From a virus, in IMG/VR virus record IMGVR_UViG_3300037068_000169, positions 1-32,410 of that record: a stretch of DNA of 32,410 nt. One strand, written 5' to 3'. The notes under the pieces are model-generated. The model was not told where the DNA came from and searched no databases. It saw nothing but the letters and a program-made list of their open reading frames with translations. Below, in pieces: positions 2,225 through 32,410 of this stretch (the first letter of the stretch is position 1; every line of letters starts with the position of its first letter). Position numbers and translations under genes: made by a program.

Positions 2225-2595
2225 TGCGAACCCCCCCCGTCCTCCGTATCGCCGAGGGCCGCGAGGTGCTCGACGGAGGAGAACCTCGTCCTGAGGGGTT
2301 TGCACCTCACCCACGAGACGGCCGGCTCCCCCGTTGGGGGACACCCGACCTCGGACCCCACGATCGACCTCAGCTCGCGGTCGAGGACCGGGACGTTCCC
2401 GGGAGGCTCCGCGTTCGACATGACCGGAAGGGCCACGATCAGCAGCTGCGTGCTCTCCGGCCCCCGGTCCGGACAGCTGAAGTGGACCGCGCAGACGTAC
2501 TGCGCCTGCCGGTCCGGATCCGGTCGACGTCCCACCCCGCAGGCGACGAGGATGACCGACATGAATGAGACGGTGAACATAGCGAGTCGACCCAT
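2221..2595 (-). CDS. Small Cys-containing lipoprotein A (124 aa)
   Basis: The signal peptide (residues 1-18, FTVSFMSVILVAC) ends in an LVAC lipobox with Cys19. The mature protein has Y-V-C-x5-C (C35, C41) and two later Cys (85, 98). The ATG at 2595 is chosen because GGAG lies seven bases upstream and the signal peptide then begins correctly; longer in-frame extension reads through AT-rich promoter-like DNA. It heads a run of three overlapping leftward genes and shares the YxC-x5-C motif with its downstream neighbour. It is likely exported and lipid-anchored. No family is recognised. Confidence 0.75.
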   Translation of the reverse strand: MGRLAMFTVSFMSVILVACGVGRRPDPDRQAQYVCAVHFSCPDRGPESTQLLIVALPVMSNAEPPGNVPVLDRELRSIVGSEVGCPPTGEPAVSWVRCKPLRTRFSSVEHLAALGDTEDGGGSQ

Positions 2596-2684
2596 CACGC
2601 ATCTCCAACTTGGGGTTAATTCCCCACTGTGATAATGGTAAATACCAATTACTTTCCATGAAATACCATTAATCCATCGCGTCA
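2596..2684 (-). promoter_or_regulatory. AT-rich promoter/operator island upstream of lipoprotein operon
   Basis: This short gap is much more AT-rich than the rest of the window. It contains a dyad TGGTA-AA-TACCA (2636-2647) and a second AATGGTATTT half-site on the leftward strand (about 2661-2670), so TGGTATTT occurs twice. A GGGG-TTAATT-CCCC stem lies nearer the gene, followed by the GGAG ribosome site. The AT content, the dyad and the position suggest a separate regulated leftward promoter. No convincing -35/-10 pair can be assigned, and the host sigma consensus is unknown. Confidence 0.55.
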
Positions 2685-2801
2685 TCACGCGAACCAACCC
2701 CTCCACACGTCGAACCGGTGCCACGCCAGCGCCTCCTCGGTGACCGCGACGCGGCCGTCCGACCACCGGAAGCAGCGGCCCGCGGGGTCCCATTGGGTCA
2801 C
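2685..2801 (-). CDS. Very small ORF (38 aa) coupled to the ParB-like gene
   Basis: The GTG start at 2801 overlaps the TGA of the ParB-like gene in a GTGA arrangement. The peptide is Trp-rich and contains WDPAGRCFRWSDGRVAV and ends WHRFDVWRGWFA. No family is recognised. The stop-start overlap and non-random composition support it being real. It would be co-translated with the ParB-like protein. Confidence 0.45.
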   Translation of the reverse strand: MTQWDPAGRCFRWSDGRVAVTEEALAWHRFDVWRGWFA

Positions 2802-3979
2802 CCGACACCCGCGGCGGCCAGCTCGGCGTCCACCGACCGCCTGACCCTGTCGAGCTCCAGCTCGATCGAGGCCGGGGAGGCCCTTCCGTCGGAGGCCAGC
2901 TGGGCCCCGTACGCCGCCAGCGTGTCGGCCCTCCCCCCGACCCCGACCCTCAGCTGGACCAGCAGCAGCTCGGTGGCCAGCAACCTGGCCCTGAGCGATC
3001 GGACCGCGTCGGCCATCTCCAACCCCGTCAGGACCCCGTCGTCCACGGCCCCACGGAGGGGAGCCGGGGCCTCTGGGCGGTGTTCGGCGTTCCTCGGTGG
3101 GGGGACAGGGGCCGGCGGCGGCGGGGCCTGCATAGACGAGGGGGGAGGCGTCCTCCGCAGGTCCTCCATCACGCGGCTGAGCCTGTCCGGATCGGCGTTG
3201 GTCGGCATGTGGACCGATCCTACCGCTTCGACCTTCGGTCGGCCATCGTCGTCCGGGTGCTCCCCGCCGTCCTCGTCCCAATACTCCGCTCCGCTGTCGG
3301 CCAGGACGCCCCGGAGCTCCGCCTCCACGTCGCCGCGGTCGTCACCAGGCCGACCGCCAGGTTCACTCCGAGGGGTCTCCACGTGCGTCGTGGGGGGTTC
3401 GATCGCCGCGGCCTGTGGGGAGGCCACCGGCGCGGGGAGTCCCATCCCAGACGATCCGGTTGGCGGCAGGCCCCGGGCGGCCCGCAACTCCCGCTTCACC
3501 CCGTTCACCGAGCGCTCACCGCTGAGCACGGCGCGTTGCTGCTCCTCCGAGGCGTTGCGGACCACGAAGTTCGCGTCGACCAGCTGCTGCCGGGAGACGC
3601 CTGCCAGCGCGGCCTCCTGGGCCAGGGTCCTCCCGGGAGAACAATCGTTGTTCTCCCGTCGCCTCAGCTCCATCCGCAGCAGCAGCTTCGCCTTGATCAG
3701 GGCCCGCTGCGACTTGTCCAGGTGCCGCCGGTGGATGTTCAGCCCGGCCACCAGGTCCTCGGGGGTCCCGACCCCGTCCCAGACGTTGAACTGGGGCTCG
3801 ACTCCGGCCAGCTCGCAGGCCAGCATCCTGTTCCGACCGTCTAGGACGGACCCGTCCGGATGGAGCAGGATCGGGGTCCGGAGGCCGTTCGTCCTGATGT
3901 CATCCGCGAGCTCCGCCAGCTCGTCCTTCGGTAGCATGGGGAACTCGTTCGCCACGTCGCTGATCCTGCGTTCACTCAT
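2798..3979 (-). CDS. ParB-like nuclease/partition-domain protein (393 aa)
   Basis: The N-terminal region (about 1-75) is a ParB/sulfiredoxin-type domain: a LADDIRTNGLRTPILL segment, then the signature LDGRNRMLACELAGV at 46-60. Residues about 85-165 are helical with a helix-turn-helix-like part (LAQEAALAGVSRQQLVDANFVV). The remainder is a long Pro/Asp/Glu-rich linker (about 170-305) and a helical C-terminal domain (about 310-393) with leucine spacing suited to dimerisation. ParB-family phage proteins bind DNA sites, act as CTPases or nucleases, or regulate. The start ATG overlaps the upstream RHH gene by 8 nt. No ParA gene is present. A 25-bp palindrome lies inside this gene. A DNA-binding regulator is the most economical reading. 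Confidence 0.8.
   Translation of the reverse strand: MSERRISDVANEFPMLPKDELAELADDIRTNGLRTPILLHPDGSVLDGRNRMLACELAGVEPQFNVWDGVGTPEDLVAGLNIHRRHLDKSQRALIKAKLLLRMELRRRENNDCSPGRTLAQEAALAGVSRQQLVDANFVVRNASEEQQRAVLSGERSVNGVKRELRAARGLPPTGSSGMGLPAPVASPQAAAIEPPTTHVETPRSEPGGRPGDDRGDVEAELRGVLADSGAEYWDEDGGEHPDDDGRPKVEAVGSVHMPTNADPDRLSRVMEDLRRTPPPSSMQAPPPPAPVPPPRNAEHRPEAPAPLRGAVDDGVLTGLEMADAVRSLRARLLATELLLVQLRVGVGGRADTLAAYGAQLASDGRASPASIELELDRVRRSVDAELAAAGVG
3634..3658. promoter_or_regulatory. 25-bp palindrome, site A
   Basis: The arms CGGGAGAACAA (3634-3644) and TTGTTCTCCCG (3648-3658) surround the trinucleotide TCG. The site lies inside the ParB-like gene, where it reads as RENNDCSP on the leftward strand. 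It is one of three related sites in the control third of the genome and is likely a protein-binding site. Confidence 0.7.
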
Positions 3980-4163
3980 CTCCGCTTCCCTCCCCCTCGG
4001 CCGTCGCTCCCTCGATCCCGAGCGCCATCCTGACCATCAGGGCCAGGGTGACGCCCGCCTCCCTGGCCCGCTCCGTCAGCTCCTCGTGCTCGGCCTCGGT
4101 CACCGTGACCGCGACCCTCCTGCTCTTTCGCCCGACGTTGCGGGCCCTCTCCGGTGTTTCCAT
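3972..4163 (-). CDS. Ribbon-helix-helix DNA-binding protein (63 aa)
   Basis: The fold signature is a basic N-terminus, a short beta strand (SRRVAVTVTEAE) and two helices (HEELTERAREAG, then LALMVRMALGIEG), typical of Arc/CopG/MobC-type ribbon-helix-helix repressors that bind DNA as dimers. The acidic tail ends GEGSGDE. The ATG at 4163 has no good ribosome site and lies just after an AT-rich hexamer, so the transcript may be leaderless or poorly translated; a GTG at 4217 in frame would read through the operator-like repeats and is less likely. The stop overlaps the ParB-like gene start by 8 nt. It probably represses its own divergent promoter. Confidence 0.8.
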   Translation of the reverse strand: METPERARNVGRKSRRVAVTVTEAEHEELTERAREAGVTLALMVRMALGIEGATAEGEGSGDE

Positions 4164-4196
4164 GGCGTAAAATATGGCGCTGCAACGCCATGGCGC
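4161..4196. promoter_or_regulatory. Divergent promoter/operator with ATGGCG repeats
   Basis: ATGGCG occurs at 4162, 4174 and 4190, and inverted as CGCCAT at 4186-4191. The second and the inverted copies form a near-perfect 18-bp dyad (4174-4191) with a TGCA centre. Between the copies, TAAAAT (4168-4173) is a rightward -10-like hexamer, and on the leftward strand the overlapping TATTTT is a -10-like hexamer. Short repeated half-sites are typical RHH operators, and the RHH gene starts here, so autoregulation of both divergent units is likely. No clear -35 is seen. Confidence 0.6.
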
Positions 4197-4285
4197 CACT
4201 AAACGAACGGAAATCACCGTTTCGCGGGGGGAACGGCCGGGAGCCGTCCCAGAGGCCTACCCAGGTCCTGAAGGAGTGCACGGAG

Positions 4286-4624
4286 ATGGCGACGTTCACC
4301 GACGAGCGGCTGATCGAGGCGTGGGCCCGTATCGACGGGATCGCGGAGGTGGCCCATGAGCTGGGCGCGACCTATGCCGCAGTAAACAACCGGGCAATGC
4401 GACTCCGACTACAGGGAGTTCCCCTGAGGGGGATGCGCTCCCCGAGTAGACGCCGGGGAGGACAATCGCTGTCCTCCCAGAATCCCGTCGGCCAGGATTC
4501 TGGGAGGATCGGAGTCGAATCACGCGGAGACGATGACCCGTCGACGCGCGGGGTGGACCCCGAGGAGCTGAGGGACCTGGTGGAGGCCTTCCGGTCCAGC
4601 GTCAGGCGTCGACCCTCTCCCTGA
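4286..4624 (+). CDS. Small helix-turn-helix protein (112 aa)
   Basis: The N-terminal 45 residues look like a helix-turn-helix of the kind that recognises tandem sites: ERLIEAWARIDGIAEVAHEL, then GATYAAVNNRAMRLRLQGV. A Gly/Ser/Arg/Gln-rich linker (about 50-90) and a short C-terminal helix (DPEELRDLVEAFRSSV) follow. AAGGAG lies nine bases before the ATG at 4286, which decides the start against an upstream frame-open ATG at 4154. It diverges from the RHH-ParB unit and its 3' end overlaps the convergent gene at 4602 by 23 nt. The linker coding sequence carries two hairpins and one regulatory palindrome. It is probably a phage transcription regulator. Confidence 0.7.
   Translation: MATFTDERLIEAWARIDGIAEVAHELGATYAAVNNRAMRLRLQGVPLRGMRSPSRRRGGQSLSSQNPVGQDSGRIGVESRGDDDPSTRGVDPEELRDLVEAFRSSVRRRPSP
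4455..4508 (+). promoter_or_regulatory. Palindrome site B with competing downstream hairpin
   Basis: The first hairpin has arms GGGAGGACA (4456-4464) and TGTCCTCCC (4470-4478); it matches site A at 20 of 23 positions, and one arm change (A-T to G-C) is compensated. The second hairpin has 14-bp perfect arms, TCCTCCCAGAATCC (4472-4485) and GGATTCTGGGAGGA (4495-4508), with a 9-nt loop. The two use the same central TCCTCCC, so they cannot form together, as in attenuators. Confidence 0.6.
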
Positions 4625-5225
4625 CGCGATCGACTCGAGTCGGGTAGAGCCTCTCCCCCGGTATCGGACGGAAGCAGACCCGCCTGACCGACCCCTCGCT
4701 GGGAAACGCGTAGGCGGGGGTCCAGAGGGACTCCCTCGTCAGGAACTCGACCCTCCTGAGCCGGGGGACGTCGCGCTCCTGAAGGGTGTTGGAGGTCCTC
4801 TCGACCTCCCCACGGACCTGGGCCTTCGACATGAGTCCCGGGATCACCACGGTCGCCTGGGCCTCGGGAGTCACCCCCGCGAGTCCGGGGACCAGCGTGA
4901 TCGCGGCCTTCGAGACGACGCAGGTCCTCCCCGACCCGTCGACCATCGCCACCGCGTAGGGCTCACCGGCCTTGTTCCTCCTGAGGAGGCAGCGCGGTGA
5001 GCCGGACGGGTCGAAGAGCGGGTCCAGCGTCACGAGGAGGGAGCGGACCGCGGAGAGCATCCCGAGGACCCCTCCCGATCCCTGACCGAGGGGGATCGCC
5101 CCTAGTCCCTCCCAGTCGCTGAGGTCAGGAGGACTCCGGTACGATGCGACGTACGCTTGGAGTCCCGCTCCCACTATCCCGGGGGACCGTGGAGTCCCCC
5201 GAATCGCTCCGCTCTTCCTAGACAA
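4602..5225 (-). CDS. Hypothetical protein (207 aa), convergent with HTH gene
   Basis: No family is recognised. The start is TTG at 5225, chosen because a strong AGGAGG lies about six bases upstream. The protein is mixed alpha/beta: SDWEGLGAIPLGQGSGGVLGMLSAVRSLL near residues 36-65, then strand-rich sequence (EPYAVAMVDGSGRTCVVSKAAITLVPGLAG) at about 87-117, and a basic Arg-rich C-terminus (VRRVCFRPIPGERLYPTRVDRVRERV). There is no signal peptide or membrane segment. It lies in the control region and converges on the HTH gene with a 23-nt overlap, so the two transcripts would interfere. A regulatory or replication role is possible but cannot be shown. Confidence 0.6.
   Translation of the reverse strand: MSRKSGAIRGTPRSPGIVGAGLQAYVASYRSPPDLSDWEGLGAIPLGQGSGGVLGMLSAVRSLLVTLDPLFDPSGSPRCLLRRNKAGEPYAVAMVDGSGRTCVVSKAAITLVPGLAGVTPEAQATVVIPGLMSKAQVRGEVERTSNTLQERDVPRLRRVEFLTRESLWTPAYAFPSEGSVRRVCFRPIPGERLYPTRVDRVRERVDA
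5181..5200. promoter_or_regulatory. Inverted repeat near the start of the 207-aa gene
   Basis: The arms GGGGGAC (5181-5187) and GTCCCCC (5194-5200) enclose CGTGGA, inside the first 15 codons of the leftward gene starting at 5225. A stable stem so close to the start could slow translation initiation. Confidence 0.35.
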
Positions 5226-5334
5226 CGTCTCCTCCTCGGAATCGGTTGGGGACCGGTGGGTTAGACCGATCGATAGGAGGGATTGTATCGCTATTGGACC
5301 AAGGGAGTCCCAAGCGATGCGTTCGGGCGAGTCC
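5226..5334 (-). promoter_or_regulatory. Leader/promoter region of the 207-aa gene
   Basis: On the leftward strand this holds a -10-like TACAAT (about 5282-5287) and the strong AGGAGG before the TTG at 5225. The stem ATTGGACC...GGAGTCC (5293-5310) lies here. A matching -35 at 17 bp spacing is absent; TTGGGA lies 20 bp upstream. No gene is supported in this stretch. Confidence 0.35.
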
Positions 5335-5359
5335 TAAAAACTCTCCTCGATTGGAGAGT
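5335..5359 (-). terminator. Rho-independent terminator on the leftward strand
   Basis: Read leftward, stem ACTCTCC/GGAGAGT with a 6-nt loop is followed directly by TTTTTAGG. This is the clearest intrinsic terminator in the window. It would end a leftward transcript arriving from about 5740-5870, before the 207-aa gene, or act as an attenuator in that gene's leader. Confidence 0.65.
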
Positions 5360-5378
5360 GAGCGGACCCGCCTCCCCA

Positions 5379-5454
5379 TTCCCTCAGGGATCGGTGTTCG
5401 TCGTCGGTGGGCTTGTCCCACCGACCTTAGCGTCTCCCCGCAGTGTTCGCGGGG
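5379..5454. promoter_or_regulatory. Cluster of three hairpins
   Basis: Stems are TCCC-TCA-GGGA (5380-5390), GTCGGTGGG/CCCACCGAC with a 5-nt loop (5403-5425), and CCCCGC/GCGGGG with a 7-nt loop (5436-5454). Together with the adjacent terminator they give a compact structured RNA on either strand. It could be the 3' end of a leftward transcript or a small RNA. Confidence 0.5.
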
Positions 5455-5738
5455 GGGAGCGGGTTTCGCCGGAGGCGATCCATCCGCCGTGTCCCCTCTG
5501 GACTCTTTATAGGAATGACTGCGGCCCTCGCCTGAACGCAAATAGTTTGTAACAAAGTGAGCGGTGACTCAAGGCATTGGACCCATTGGAGTCCGTCGAG
5601 GGCCACTCCGTCGACCGCTTCCGAGAGAACAACGATTGTTCTCTCGACGAGTCCACCGTGCCCCCATGCTTCAGGTCGGATCGCAGGTCCCCTCAGGCGG
5701 GCCCCACGGTGCCACCCGATCGTCTGAGGTGAACCCAT
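5427..5738 (-). CDS. Doubtful leftward ORF (103 aa) ahead of a terminator
   Basis: This frame would start at ATG 5738 with GGGAGG three bases upstream (short spacing) and end just before the hairpin cluster and terminator, which is where a gene should end. The middle is protein-like (LVERTIVVLSEAVDGVALDGLQWVQCLESPLTLLQ), but codon use is not biased to G/C at third positions as in most window genes and both ends are low-complexity. It contains palindrome site C and a TTGTAACAA motif, so the DNA may instead be a regulatory region. I would not rely on this gene. Confidence 0.25.
   Translation of the reverse strand: MGSPQTIGWHRGARLRGPAIRPEAWGHGGLVERTIVVLSEAVDGVALDGLQWVQCLESPLTLLQTICVQARAAVIPIKSPEGTRRMDRLRRNPLPPANTAGRR
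5546..5556. promoter_or_regulatory. TTTGTAACAAA dyad, first copy
   Basis: TTTGT-A-ACAAA is a perfect odd-length palindrome in an AT-rich patch. A TTGTAACAA copy at 5822-5830 and a TGTAACA half-match at 5812-5818 lie before the rightward early genes. The shared motif suggests an operator used twice in the control region. Confidence 0.45.
5622..5646. promoter_or_regulatory. 25-bp palindrome, site C
   Basis: The arms CGAGAGAACAA (5622-5632) and TTGTTCTCTCG (5636-5646) surround CGA. Read on the other strand the centre is TCG and the site differs from site A only at the third base pair of the stem (G-C to A-T, changed on both sides). It lies in the control region outside any confident gene. Confidence 0.7.
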
Positions 5739-5871
5739 CGGCCTCCCGTCCCAGGACGCCCCACCGACGCCCGTCGGTCACGCTCAGATGATCCGACGGG
5801 CCTTCATCCCCTGTAACACGCTTGTAACAACTTTGATGGGGATCGCCGGCCTACAGCGGTATGGTTATGGC
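5739..5871 (+). promoter_or_regulatory. Promoter region of the rightward early genes
   Basis: This stretch includes TGTAACA (5812-5818) and TTGTAACAA (5822-5830) motifs, then TATGGT about five bases before the ATG at 5872. The close spacing of that hexamer to the start would make the first transcript leaderless. A good -35 is not evident. No ORF in this segment is supported. Confidence 0.4.
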
Positions 5872-6117
5872 ATGGCCAAGTGCGAGCGTACGAAGAGGGC
5901 GTGGCTGCCGAACGATTCGCTGGGGAGGGCGACCCCCCACGTGTTCCACGGGACCGAGAGGGTGCGGGTGTCCTGCGGGGACGACGGGTCCCCGACGGCG
6001 CTGGCACTGCTCTACCGGTGTGAGGAGACGGGCCTCGTCAGGCGATGGGGCCTGGAGCCGGACTCCGTCCAGGGGTTGTCGGTGGCGGGCGATTTGCCCG
6101 CCACGGGGGTCAACTGA
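5872..6117 (+). CDS. Small hypothetical protein (81 aa), first rightward gene
   Basis: The protein begins MAKCERTKRAWLPNDSLG, is basic at the N-terminus and has strand-like segments (ERVRVSCGDDGSPTALALLYRCEE) with three Cys residues; the pattern suggests a small beta-rich fold, possibly metal-binding, but no family is recognised. ATG 5872 has no Shine-Dalgarno sequence; an upstream in-frame ATG at 5788 would read through the TGTAACA motifs and is less likely. It begins the rightward unit. The 3' end carries a perfect 9-bp hairpin just before the next gene. Confidence 0.55.
   Translation: MAKCERTKRAWLPNDSLGRATPHVFHGTERVRVSCGDDGSPTALALLYRCEETGLVRRWGLEPDSVQGLSVAGDLPATGVN
6082..6104 (+). promoter_or_regulatory. 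Perfect 9-bp hairpin at gene junction
   Basis: Arms GTGGCGGGC (6082-6090) and GCCCGCCAC (6096-6104) enclose GATTT, inside the last codons of one gene and 14 bases before the next ATG at 6119. It can expose or hide the ribosome site of the next gene or tune read-through. Confidence 0.5.
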
Positions 6118-6118
6118 C

Positions 6119-6301
6119 ATGGTGATCGAGGTCAGGCACTCGGCGGACCCGCAGTGCACCGCGATGGCGGCCCTCGTGGCGCTGGTCCTCAGGCACGGCC
6201 GGTCCCTCGGCTACCGAGCGGGGGAGCGCCTGATGGGGATCGTCGGGACCAAGGCCGACGGGACCTCCACGGCCCCCCCCGGAGTCCCCACCGTCGTCTG
6301 A
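6119..6301 (+). CDS. Small hypothetical protein (60 aa)
   Basis: Starts one base after the upstream stop codon, so translation is likely coupled. The core is MVIEVRHSADPQCTAMAAL, a strand followed by a hydrophobic helix (MAALVALVLRHG) too short for a confident membrane anchor. The N-terminal pattern (VEV-x-H, then C, then an Ala/Leu helix) resembles the start of the 142-residue protein encoded at 6808, so the two may share a small domain. No function is known. Confidence 0.5.
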   Translation: MVIEVRHSADPQCTAMAALVALVLRHGRSLGYRAGERLMGIVGTKADGTSTAPPGVPTVV

Positions 6302-6314
6302 GGTGAGCTTTCCG

Positions 6315-6470
6315 GTGGCGGATGGATCGGCCAAGGGGTCCTCTCCGGGGACCCCTCTCAGACGAGGACGTCACACGGTGGCATGGCAGGCCTCGGACCC
6401 GCACCGGAACGACCAGGCGAGGATCATGATGGGGATGGAGGCGGCGTGCCGCCGGGCGGAGGGACTGTGA
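6315..6470 (+). CDS. Small hypothetical protein (51 aa)
   Basis: The GTG at 6315 has AGGTGA about eight bases upstream, overlapping the previous stop codon. The C-terminal half (VAWQASDPHRNDQARIMM, then GMEAACRRAEGL) reads like a genuine helical protein and has no run of out-of-frame-type residues; the first 20 residues are Gly/Ser-rich, and GTG 6378 could be a shorter start. A 7-bp hairpin (6335-6355) lies in its 5' coding part. No family is recognised. Confidence 0.4.
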   Translation: MADGSAKGSSPGTPLRRGRHTVAWQASDPHRNDQARIMMGMEAACRRAEGL

Positions 6471-6496
6471 TTATCGTTGATCGAGAAGGAGTGAAG

Positions 6497-6811
6497 ATGG
6501 GTTACATCACGTTTCATGAAGTGTGTGAGGCCGTTGAGGTCGTGAAGTCAAGGTTCGGAGACCGGGTCGGTCCCTACGGAGAGATTCGAGATGTCCGAAT
6601 GTGGCCAGGTCGTAACGGGATCGCTGAGACGCCTGAGGCGATGTTCGTAAAGGGGCTGGTCGATGCGGGCCTCTATGAACAGAGGGACCTTGACTATGGG
6701 CCGAGCTCAGCGCGAACGGTCATGCTGCACAACTCCCGGGAGCACATCCTGAATCTGAGAGAGCAGGTTCGTTCTCTGGGTGGGGAGCCGGTCCCCGGGT
6801 TCGAACTGTGA
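6497..6811 (+). CDS. Hypothetical protein (104 aa) with low-GC coding
   Basis: AAGGAG lies six bases before the ATG. The protein is mostly alpha/beta: ITFHEVCEAVEVVKSRFGD, then YGEIRDVRMWPGRNGI, a helix with FVKGLVDAGLYEQRDLDYG, and a C-terminal helix (SREHILNLREQVRSLGG). Coding sequence is clearly less GC-rich than the neighbours, with many A/T third positions (for example ACGTTTCATGAAGTGTGTGA), which hints at recent acquisition. It overlaps the next gene in a GTGA arrangement. No family is recognised. Confidence 0.65.
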   Translation: MGYITFHEVCEAVEVVKSRFGDRVGPYGEIRDVRMWPGRNGIAETPEAMFVKGLVDAGLYEQRDLDYGPSSARTVMLHNSREHILNLREQVRSLGGEPVPGFEL

Positions 6812-7236
6812 CCGTCGAGGTCTGTCACACGTTCGGGGACGCGGGGTGCCTCGAGCTGGCGTCCCTGACGGCCATGGCCCTCAGGTGTGAGGTCCGCGAG
6901 GACCCGCCGGGGATCGACGGACGGATCGTCCGCGTCTCGGTCCACGGGCACGTGGTCGCCTCGGTGGAGCTGGGGCCGGCCCCTCGCACCGACGAGTGGG
7001 TCACGCGGATGGCGGCGTCGCTGGCCCGCTCGGTCTTGGCCGCAGGTGCGGACTTCGGCGGACAGGGCGACGTCTCGGCGTTGCATAAGGCCCACGGCCT
7101 GGACCGGTACGACGCTGCCAAGATCTGGAGGGCCCGGAGTGCGACGAGGGCGAGAGACAGGAGGCGGGTGGCGGAGGCGGCGGGCCTCCCGACCGCGACG
7201 AATGGGACGACTGCTACTGATGATGGAGGAGAGTGA
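6808..7236 (+). CDS. Hypothetical protein (142 aa)
   Basis: GTG start overlaps the preceding TGA, so translation is coupled. The N-terminal half has strands with VEVCHTFGDAGCLELASL and IVRVSVHGHVVASVEL; the C-terminal half is helical and basic (KAHGLDRYDAAKIWRARSATRARDRRRVAEAAG), which may contact nucleic acid. The N-terminus resembles the 60-residue product at 6119. No family is recognised. Confidence 0.6.
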   Translation: MTVEVCHTFGDAGCLELASLTAMALRCEVREDPPGIDGRIVRVSVHGHVVASVELGPAPRTDEWVTRMAASLARSVLAAGADFGGQGDVSALHKAHGLDRYDAAKIWRARSATRARDRRRVAEAAGLPTATNGTTATDDGGE

Positions 7237-7237
7237 G

Positions 7238-7417
7238 ATGCGTGGGAACGAGATCGTTTGCTTTGAGGTCGGCGTCCAAGGCGTCCGACGAACGTCTGAG
7301 GAGCACAGGGCGTGCTTGGAGGCACAGCTGGACGCGGAGCTCGCTGAGATCCGCGAGCTCTGCCTGAGGGCCGGGAGGCACCAGTCGATCCAGATCGAGG
7401 TTAGGATCCGTGGCTGA
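7238..7417 (+). CDS. Small hypothetical protein (59 aa)
   Basis: GGAGGAGAG lies just before the ATG at 7238, one base after the upstream stop codon, and fixes the start. The peptide has a strand (EIVCFEVGVQGV), a charged helix (SEEHRACLEAQLDAELAEIRE), and ends with a strand (SIQIEVRIRG). Its 3' end overlaps the next small ORF by 8 nt. No family is recognised. Confidence 0.6.
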   Translation: MRGNEIVCFEVGVQGVRRTSEEHRACLEAQLDAELAEIRELCLRAGRHQSIQIEVRIRG

Positions 7418-7535
7418 GGACCTGGCGGTCCTCCTCCGAGAGGCACTGACTGAGTACCGGCGGCAGCTCGAGGAGCTGCGGGGGATCGCCCGGGACGCGC
7501 GGGAGGTCCTTCGGTGCGTGATGGGGGACGACTGA
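7410..7535 (+). CDS. Small coiled-coil protein (41 aa)
   Basis: GTG 7410 lies inside the end of the previous gene (8-nt overlap), and the stop is one base before the next GTG. The peptide is almost wholly one charged helix (AVLLREALTEYRRQLEELRG, then IARDAREVL) with heptad-like leucines. It is below usual gene-finding thresholds, but the tight overlaps and clean helical composition support it. It may be a small regulator or assembly factor. Confidence 0.5.
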   Translation: MAEDLAVLLREALTEYRRQLEELRGIARDAREVLRCVMGDD

Positions 7536-7536
7536 C

Positions 7537-8154
7537 GTGCCCTGCCCCCAGCACGGGAGCATGCCCAGTCCCCTCAGGCCCGCCGCATGCACCACGTGTC
7601 ACCCACTCGATCTGGGCGAGCCCACGCCGGCCGGGTCGGTTGGAACCACCCAGGCCACCGAGAGGCTCCTCTCAGACCTCGTGGGGACCCTGAGGGCCCA
7701 GTTGGCAGAATCGAAGGCCGAGGCCTCGCGGCTCGCGGCGGAGATCGAGTCCCTGCGGGCCGAGGTCACGGGACTCAAGCGCGGCCTGACGGCGGCGAAG
7801 CGGGACGCGAGGGAGGGCCGCGAGCTCGTCCGCCAGCTGGTCGCGGAGAAGCACGTCATCCTCGAGGCGATGGAGGGCCTGGTCAAGTGGCCGCCCTCCG
7901 CTTCCTCCGTCGGAAGGACCCCGACGGCGACCCGATCGAGTGGTCCGAGCTGGAGGGCACCGACCTCACGGCCGCCGTCTGGGTGGACGACTCGGGCGTG
8001 CATTGCTGGAGTGTCCGCCAGGGGAAGCGGCACCTGGAGAACGGGACTGCGGACACCCGGGGGCTGGCCCGGCTCGAGTCCCGGCGATACGCGGCTCATG
8101 CCATGGCGTTCGTTCTGTCGTGGGGGCGGTGGTGCTGACTGTCGGCCTACGTAA
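7537..8154 (+). CDS. Cys/His N-terminus plus coiled-coil protein; only the 5' half looks coding
   Basis: GTG 7537 starts one base after the previous stop. Residues 1-25 hold C3, H6, C19, C22 and H23, a possible small zinc site. Residues about 40-115 form a long coiled coil (LRAQLAESKAEASRLAAEIE continuing SLRAEVTGLKRGL). After about residue 117 (7887) the frame becomes Ser/Arg/Pro/Thr-rich nonsense up to the stop at 8154, while the other frame (7887-8138) becomes protein-like. Either this gene is disrupted by an indel, or a frameshift joins the two, or the second gene starts internally. A fused product would have about 200 residues. No family is recognised. Confidence 0.5.
   Translation: MPCPQHGSMPSPLRPAACTTCHPLDLGEPTPAGSVGTTQATERLLSDLVGTLRAQLAESKAEASRLAAEIESLRAEVTGLKRGLTAAKRDAREGRELVRQLVAEKHVILEAMEGLVKWPPSASSVGRTPTATRSSGPSWRAPTSRPPSGWTTRACIAGVSARGSGTWRTGLRTPGGWPGSSPGDTRLMPWRSFCRGGGGADCRPT
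7887..8138 (+). CDS. Hypothetical protein (83 aa), -1 frame relative to upstream gene
   Basis: This frame carries AALRFLRRKDPDGDPIEW, then DLTAAVWVDDSGVHCWSVRQ and a helix LARLESRRYAAHAMAFVL, a compact alpha/beta pattern with good codon character, whereas the upstream frame is nonsense here. GTG 7887 has no strong ribosome site, so it may be read by continuation from the upstream coiled-coil gene or by reinitiation. The product is probably the C-terminal domain of that protein or a small separate protein. Confidence 0.5.
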   Translation: MAALRFLRRKDPDGDPIEWSELEGTDLTAAVWVDDSGVHCWSVRQGKRHLENGTADTRGLARLESRRYAAHAMAFVLSWGRWC

Positions 8155-8158
8155 CGCC

Positions 8159-8362
8159 ATGACATCGATCCTGAACTACCTGCGTGGTCACCTGACCCTC
8201 TCCTCGGCCCTCGCGGTCGTCCTGACGGTCATCAGCGTGACCCTCGCCTCGGGCCTCATCGGCCCGGACACCGCGTTCTACCACGCCCTCGGCTACGTCT
8301 CGGCGGTCATCGTGGCCCTGGGATTCAAGGCGTACCAGCCGGCCGACAAGCCGTCCGCCTGA
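8159..8362 (+). CDS. Two-TM small membrane protein, holin candidate (67 aa)
   Basis: Two hydrophobic segments are visible, about 13-34 (TLSSALAVVLTVISVTLASG) and about 40-58 (AFYHALGYVSAVIVALGF), separated by a short turn, with charged ends and a C-terminal KPSA tail. Size and topology fit class II holins, small inner-membrane proteins that permeabilise the membrane at lysis. ATG 8159 is chosen; GTG at 8129/8132 in frame is an alternative that would overlap the preceding gene. No endolysin is adjacent, so holin is a hypothesis. Confidence 0.6.
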   Translation: MTSILNYLRGHLTLSSALAVVLTVISVTLASGLIGPDTAFYHALGYVSAVIVALGFKAYQPADKPSA

Positions 8363-8407
8363 GCGGAATTTGAGGCCGCGACCTACTTCCTGGGATGACG
8401 AGGGGAA

Positions 8408-8845
8408 ATGCCGGCGACTGAGCGACAGCTGGACGAGATCACGGGCCTCCGCGACGAGGCCCTCCACGAGACCGACGAGGGACGCATCCAGCGGATCGCT
8501 GACGAGCTGGTCTCCCGGGCCGACGAGGCCGCCTCGATGCCCGAGGACAGGCTCCTGGCCGCCATCGAGCGGGAGTACCTCCAGAACCCGCTGCAGTACC
8601 GGAACACCCTCGACGTCTGCGAGGGCAGCGAGCGGGCGGCCGCCCGGCTCTGCCTCGACCACATGGTGAAGCTGCTGGAGCACGGCAAGCCCTGGCCCAT
8701 GGTGAAGTCCATGGCCCACCTCGACGGCTTCTGTCGGGTCGTCACGATGGGCCCCCGGGCCGTCCGGGGCTGCATCGACGACCTCAAGAGGCGGGGCGCC
8801 GAGCTCCGGGCCGCGGGCCTCCGCCCGACGTCCCTCAGGGAGTGA
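8408..8845 (+). CDS. Helical hypothetical protein (145 aa) at the start of the packaging block
   Basis: GAGGGG precedes the ATG by about three bases. The protein is alpha-helical throughout (ERQLDEITGLRDEALHETDE; RIQRIADELVSRADEAAS; ARLCLDHMVKLLEHGK) and acidic in the N-terminal half, more basic at the end. It precedes the GNAT-like, terminase and portal genes. A DNA-packaging adaptor or small-terminase-type role is possible from position only. Confidence 0.6.
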   Translation: MPATERQLDEITGLRDEALHETDEGRIQRIADELVSRADEAASMPEDRLLAAIEREYLQNPLQYRNTLDVCEGSERAAARLCLDHMVKLLEHGKPWPMVKSMAHLDGFCRVVTMGPRAVRGCIDDLKRRGAELRAAGLRPTSLRE

Positions 8846-31959: not shown

Positions 31960-32410
31960 ATGGCCCAGGGGACCCGCCAGGGGACCAGGCAGCAGTCCAG
32001 GACGGGGGTCGTCGAGGGGACCGCCCCGGACGTCCTCGACCTCCCGACCGTGCAGCTGGCGGCCGTCCATGTCACGCCCGACGTGGGCGTGCTCTTCACG
32101 ACCCTTCAGCTCTTCGTGACGGGGACGATGACGAACGGGGCCCAGTTCAACCGGACGCAGTTCGCGACCTACAGCATCACCGCGGGGGACACGGCGGCGG
32201 TCTCCTCCCCCGGGGGCCTGCTGACGGCCACGGCGGCCGGGAGGGTCTACGGCGGCGCCGACACCGTCCTCGCGACCGACGGACCGGGCGGCTCCGTCAC
32301 GGACACCGCGGCCGCCACGGTCATCGCCTCGGACTCCGGGTCCTCCGACCCGTGCCCGCGGATGCCGCTCCGGGACTCCGACTGGGTCGCCCTCGGGCAC
32401 GGGTCGGAGG
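31960..32410 (+). CDS. Ig-like fibre/virion surface protein, 5' part (wraps genome ends)
   Basis: ATG 31960 lies four bases after the previous stop. The frame is open to the end of the window and is continued at base 1; bases 32287-32398 are identical to 1-112. The N-terminal region (MAQGTRQGTRQQSRTGVVEG) is basic and Gln/Arg-rich, then VQLAAVHVTPDVGVLFTTLQ and the Ig-like YSITAGDTAAVSS. The last 12 bases are not part of the gene. See the entry at 1-750. Confidence 0.75.
   Translation, partial: MAQGTRQGTRQQSRTGVVEGTAPDVLDLPTVQLAAVHVTPDVGVLFTTLQLFVTGTMTNGAQFNRTQFATYSITAGDTAAVSSPGGLLTATAAGRVYGGADTVLATDGPGGSVTDTAAATVIASDSGSSDPCPRMPLRDSDWVALGHGSE
32287..32398. repeat. Direct terminal repeat, right copy
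   Basis: Exact match to bases 1-112. Unit length without the overlap is 32,286 bp. Confidence 0.9.
32342..32410. repeat. Fold-back at the right end (16-bp inverted repeat)
   Basis: The last 16 bases, GGGCACGGGTCGGAGG (32395-32410), are the reverse complement of CCTCCGACCCGTGCCC (32342-32357), with 37 bases between. The final 12 bases disagree with the sequence at 113 onward, so this end is either an assembly or amplification artefact or a real hairpin end. Confidence 0.75.

Follow-up and report, generated by a model that had tools for sequence, protein, structure and literature searches.

Layout of the control region

The window analysed here is the whole virus record of 32,410 bases with 71% G+C. 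Its two ends share a 112-base direct repeat (1-112 and 32287-32410), which indicates a near-complete, circularly mapping phage genome, and it encodes a recognisable terminase, portal protein and SU10-type adaptor. The terminal 12 bases repeat positions 57-68 in reverse-complement form, a fold-back that resembles an assembly end. The following features of the control region are relevant here:

2798..3979, minus strand: gene of an orphan ParB-like protein (393 aa), the proposed binder of the sites
3634..3658, plus strand: site A, a perfect 25-bp palindrome at codons 108-116 of the ParB-like gene (linker joining CTPase fold and HTH)
3972..4163, minus strand: gene of a 63-aa ribbon-helix-helix (RHH) protein, in overlap with the ParB-like gene; the protein is a candidate for a partner and an autoregulator
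4162..4195, no strand: ATGGCG/CGCCAT repeat cluster directly upstream of the RHH gene, a putative RHH operator
4286..4624, plus strand: gene of a small, 112-aa HTH protein, oriented divergently to the RHH/ParB-like operon; competing candidate for the binder
4455..4479, plus strand: site B, an imperfect 25-bp copy in the HTH gene, where about 13 codons are absent from a relative
5226..5871, no strand: non-coding control gap with site C, between a leftward gene for a 207-aa protein and the rightward early genes
5622..5646, minus strand: site C, a perfect 25-bp palindrome in the non-coding gap, of opposite orientation as judged by its centre

The ATGGCG/CGCCAT cluster comprises four repeats within 34 bp, which are unlike the 25-bp sites, and it is likely an autoregulatory operator of the RHH protein. 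Promoter prediction called no promoter, no terminator was called in 2500-8500, and the Rfam and tRNA scans gave no matches. The structure model of the HTH protein yielded nothing informative.

A bounded family of 25-bp palindromes

Direct re-reading of the DNA confirmed the coordinates and sequences that the first-pass annotation had given for the three sites. Sites A (CGGGAGAACAATCGTTGTTCTCCCG) and C (CGAGAGAACAACGATTGTTCTCTCG) are perfect palindromes with 11-bp arms on both sides of a 3-bp centre. Site B (GGGGAGGACAATCGCTGTCCTCCCA) deviates by one compensated (positions 7/19) and one uncompensated change (position 15), as already described, and is perfect over 9+5+9 only (4456-4478) with mismatched ends. 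Once the sites are oriented as A(+), B(+) and C(-), they agree at 19 of the 25 positions, among them the centre TCG, which reads the same on the minus strand of C as on the plus strand of A and B. This invariant centre indicates that the sites form one family with a direction, and the difference between TCG and CGA centres noted earlier is due to the strand alone. Apart from A and C, the window contains no copy of the half-site GAGAACAA/TTGTTCTC, and both of these sites are predicted to form strong hairpins in either strand. Another perfect inverted repeat, with 14-bp arms and a 9-base loop, spans 4472-4508 and overlaps the right arm of B; the two stems have TCCTCCC in common and are mutually exclusive.

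The occurrence of the sites was scored with the pattern GAGAACAAN3TTGTTCTC, i.e. a 16-base core plus three free centre bases, permitting up to three mismatches. At this threshold the window contains three matches versus 0.02 expected. Frequent triple matches in shuffled sequence had been named beforehand as an outcome that would speak against the sites, and not a single shuffle reached three. The core mismatches amount to 0, 0 and 3 for the three sites, while the next best match in the 32.4 kb has 6. When arms of the same composition were permuted (n=991), one match was obtained in 19 cases and two matches in none.

The coding context of the intragenic copies is also informative. In the ParB-like gene, site A is translated from the codons GAG AAC AAC GAT TGT TCT CCC, among which GAT, TGT and TCT make up 4%, 6% and 2% of the respective synonymous codons used by the phage. 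Rare codons are thus kept where palindrome A needs them, indicating that selection acts on the DNA. The residues encoded by site A belong to the linker that joins CTPase fold and HTH region and varies in length among homologues, and those encoded by site B to the linker that follows the HTH in the small protein; hence, the intragenic copies sit where the proteins tolerate change. Collectively, A, B and C are a sharply bounded, real family, which is confined to 2 kb around regulatory genes. The statistics, the constrained codons, the conserved centre and the different reading contexts make it a well supported prediction that they are dispersed sites for a DNA-binding protein, which bears out this part of the proposal of the first-pass annotation.

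The ParB-like protein and the distribution of the sites

The assignment of the 393-aa protein to the ParB family relies on comparison of several sequences. A family profile built from this protein and four homologues matches Noc (3e-5) and Spo0J (2e-4) and covers the CTPase fold and the HTH, and a weak fold search ranked Spo0J first and KorB fourth. The box I-, II- and III-like residues G32/P36, G48/R51 and N81/R85 are invariant in the family alignment. The two parts expected of a ParB, CTPase fold and HTH, are accordingly recognisable via the family profile and the box-like residues, while the Pfam ParB_N match of the single sequence is below the curated cut-off and its single-sequence structure model is poor. 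ParA (PF13614) was not found in the window but in 14 of 14 controls, and neither a tyrosine integrase (PF00589) nor a serine recombinase (PF00239) was detected in the window. Near the N terminus, which reads MSERRISDVANEFPML, the motif LG[K/R]GL is absent, which is the form of the ParA-binding motif; mobile elements frequently carry orphan ParBs (PMC12704722).

The sole close relative found is IMGVR_UViG_3300046516_001926, here called G001, with 85% identity in the capsid and 77% in the portal protein and aligned blocks along most of the genome. Neither the ParB-like gene nor any of the sites A, B and C was detected in G001, i.e. sites and gene are present or absent together in a co-occurrence sample of two genomes. 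The G001 contig comprises 29.1 kb, and the alignment places its missing part among the structural genes, at about 16.7-19.5 kb in window coordinates; a contig gap is hence not the reason why gene and sites are absent from its control region. The HTH gene is kept in G001; its product is 42% identical and about 13 codons shorter in the stretch holding B, the low similarity around B preventing an exact placement of the gap. Site B and the inverted repeat at 4472-4508 both fall in this shorter stretch. The first-pass annotation had regarded a lack of the sites at equivalent places in related phages as evidence against its claim. With the ParB-like gene absent as well, the finding in G001 leaves the version with ParB-like binding standing, and the HTH version is somewhat weakened because G001 keeps the HTH gene without the sites. 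The control-region genes are swapped between the two genomes (window 2798-5225 versus L022:494-2518), with the ParB-like, RHH and 207-aa orphan proteins on the window side and a T5orf172-type protein, an endonuclease VII and a 108-aa protein on the G001 side. Downstream of its HTH gene, G001 has two palindromes sharing the arm GAGAGGG/CCCTCTC (L018:1187-1205 and 1570-1587); such a pair is obtained by chance in about 6% of cases (Markov test), and it was rejected as a meaningful site pair.

Searches with the ParB-like protein revealed no relatives in the viral contigs searched, and terminase and portal alignments identified only G001 as a near relative, the other terminases being about 25% identical. 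Exact palindrome scans of viral contigs gave single matches that were dismissed as unrelated, since they differed in base composition or were located in coding sequence. A scan of genomes from 84,980 species for the core with a TCG-like centre gave four scattered, unrelated contigs, about the chance expectation. A relative with the same site was not found in the collections searched. Homologues of the ParB-like protein are encoded on plasmids and in phages, with identities of 22-32% across the aligned proteins, and a comparable dispersed palindrome family was not found within about 6 kb of these homologues on Pseudomonas and Azotobacter plasmids or in other phages. In the same scan, canonical parA/parB genes in the neighbourhood were found to be accompanied by arrays of TGGTGCTC-N-GAGCACCA and of TGTTTCAC-N-GTGAAACA, which indicates that it works.

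Some of the sequences scanned contain repeats of their own. Three to five TGGTGCTC-N-GAGCACCA palindromes are located at the parA/parB junction of Pseudomonas plasmids (L029:3128-3290, L030:3223-3350, L031:3235-3322) and represent candidate parS sites. Plasmid pT75-VIM has a single 25-bp palindrome, AAACCTACCAGAATCTGGTAGGTTT, just upstream of an orphan ParB-like gene (L035:19911-19935), and no second related palindrome was seen within 29 kb. An unrelated viral contig with 65% G+C contains a long GC-rich tract of GGCAAGG/GGCGAGG-like short units (L008:3040-3295).

Candidate binders and a possible mode of action

The best explanation at present, to which we assign a probability of about one half, is that A, B and C are specific sites of the orphan ParB-like protein, comparable to parS or KorB operators. 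Where the first-pass annotation had named the ParB-like, the HTH or another phage protein as possible binder, the ParB-like protein is now favoured as the inferred one, because of its co-occurrence with the sites in the single genome pair and its ParB-type HTH region. In its favour are also the restriction of the family to 2 kb around its own gene and the codon choice of that gene, which yields to site A. Confidence in this binder is moderate, since the collections searched yielded no relative carrying this site and a dispersed family was not seen with the plasmid homologues. Against this reading also count that the comparison involves one related genome, that the ParB_N match is sub-cut-off, that the single-sequence model is of poor quality, and that the 25-bp site is longer and its centre wider than in parS or KorB operators.

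The alternatives differ in how well they account for the distribution of the sites. One possibility is that they serve the small HTH protein, or a phage repressor that escaped recognition, as operators or stoperators for the control of early genes. The HTH protein is a serious rival as binder, even if we rate this possibility as unlikely: B lies inside its gene and C downstream, palindromic sites are typical for dimeric HTH repressors, and the GAGAGGG pair beside the diverged HTH gene of G001 is what a changed specificity might give. However, this pair is at chance level, G001 keeps the gene without any 25-bp site, and A lies within the ParB-like gene, with over 600 bp separating it from the HTH gene. 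The RHH protein (3972-4163) is a quite improbable binder of the 25-mers. RHH proteins bind short symmetric operators, and the ParB-like gene overlaps at its start with the RHH gene, but the RHH promoter contains no 25-bp site and instead the ATGGCG/CGCCAT repeats, apparently its own operator, which makes binding of the 25-mers less likely.

Recognition by a host regulator or architectural protein exploited by the phage is improbable, if slightly less so than binding by the RHH protein. It would be compatible with the fact that no phage protein is proven as binder, and the spacing of the core, GAAC-N7-GTTC, loosely resembles that of some LexA boxes, which provides a lead only. A host regulon would show many copies, however, and not four scattered contigs among 84,980 species. 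It is just as improbable as RHH binding that the palindromes are RNA hairpins, recombination sites or a mobile palindromic repeat and not protein operators. The strong hairpins of A and C, their inverted arrangement relative to each other and the location of B in the segment shorter in G001 would fit such a role. Against it stand the lack of a called terminator with a stem followed by a T run, the failure to find an integrase or resolvase, the lack of copies in viral contigs beyond unrelated matches, and the occurrence of the sites on both strands in coding and non-coding DNA.

Several known systems resemble the proposed interaction of the ParB-like protein with the palindromes. KorB of plasmid RK2 acts from 16-bp operators (OB) situated 4 bp to >1 kb from promoters, with the small partner KorA (PMC11790492). 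Shared features would be a ParB-family protein, palindromic operators scattered at short and long distances from promoters, a gene for a small DNA-binding partner nearby and a function in regulation, not partition alone; the placement of the phage sites fits such proximal and distal operators, with the promoters not located by prediction. In contrast, OB has 16 bp and another sequence while the phage sites have 25 bp and an asymmetric 3-bp centre, and the element here is a phage in which no ParA was found and in which DNA binding and CTP use are presumed. In Bacillus subtilis, parS-359 is located inside parB (PMC4442127), and similarly one of the three related palindromes, which are spread over 2 kb, is within the ParB-like gene and others are nearby. 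Different from ParABS, the window lacks ParA, the ParB-like protein lacks the ParA-binding motif, the site sequence is another one, and the copies extend across 2 kb of coding and non-coding DNA. Noc, which binds NBS, is likewise a ParB paralogue without the ParA-binding motif and with detectable profile similarity, but the NBS sequence differs and Noc acts in chromosomal nucleoid occlusion. Repeated dispersed sites in a phage control region are also known from lambda OR/OL and mycobacteriophage stoperators; however, the lambda operators comprise 17 bp and stoperators are asymmetric, whereas the sites described here are few, long and in two cases inside genes.

By analogy, a dimer of the ParB-like protein would recognise the palindrome through its central HTH and load there. 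The loaded protein would probably clamp with a nucleotide, presumably CTP, and might then spread along the control region, thereby repressing or organising the divergent regulatory promoters at about 4163-4286 and in the 5226-5871 gap. The RHH or the HTH protein may serve as promoter-bound partner, as KorA does for KorB. It is a tentative and rather doubtful extension that an orphan ParB-like clamp without ParA silences the early control region over at least 1 kb from long, directional intragenic palindromes and thus represents a phage-borne long-range switch of the KorB type.

Phages and plasmids commonly encode orphan ParB-like proteins, many of them uncharacterised (PMC12704722). For the protein described here, a candidate target can be read straight from the sequence, and the three natural site variants together with a relative that lacks both site and gene make the question of the binder decidable by a simple assay. 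At stake is whether orphan ParB-like proteins act as sequence-loaded clamps in phage regulation.
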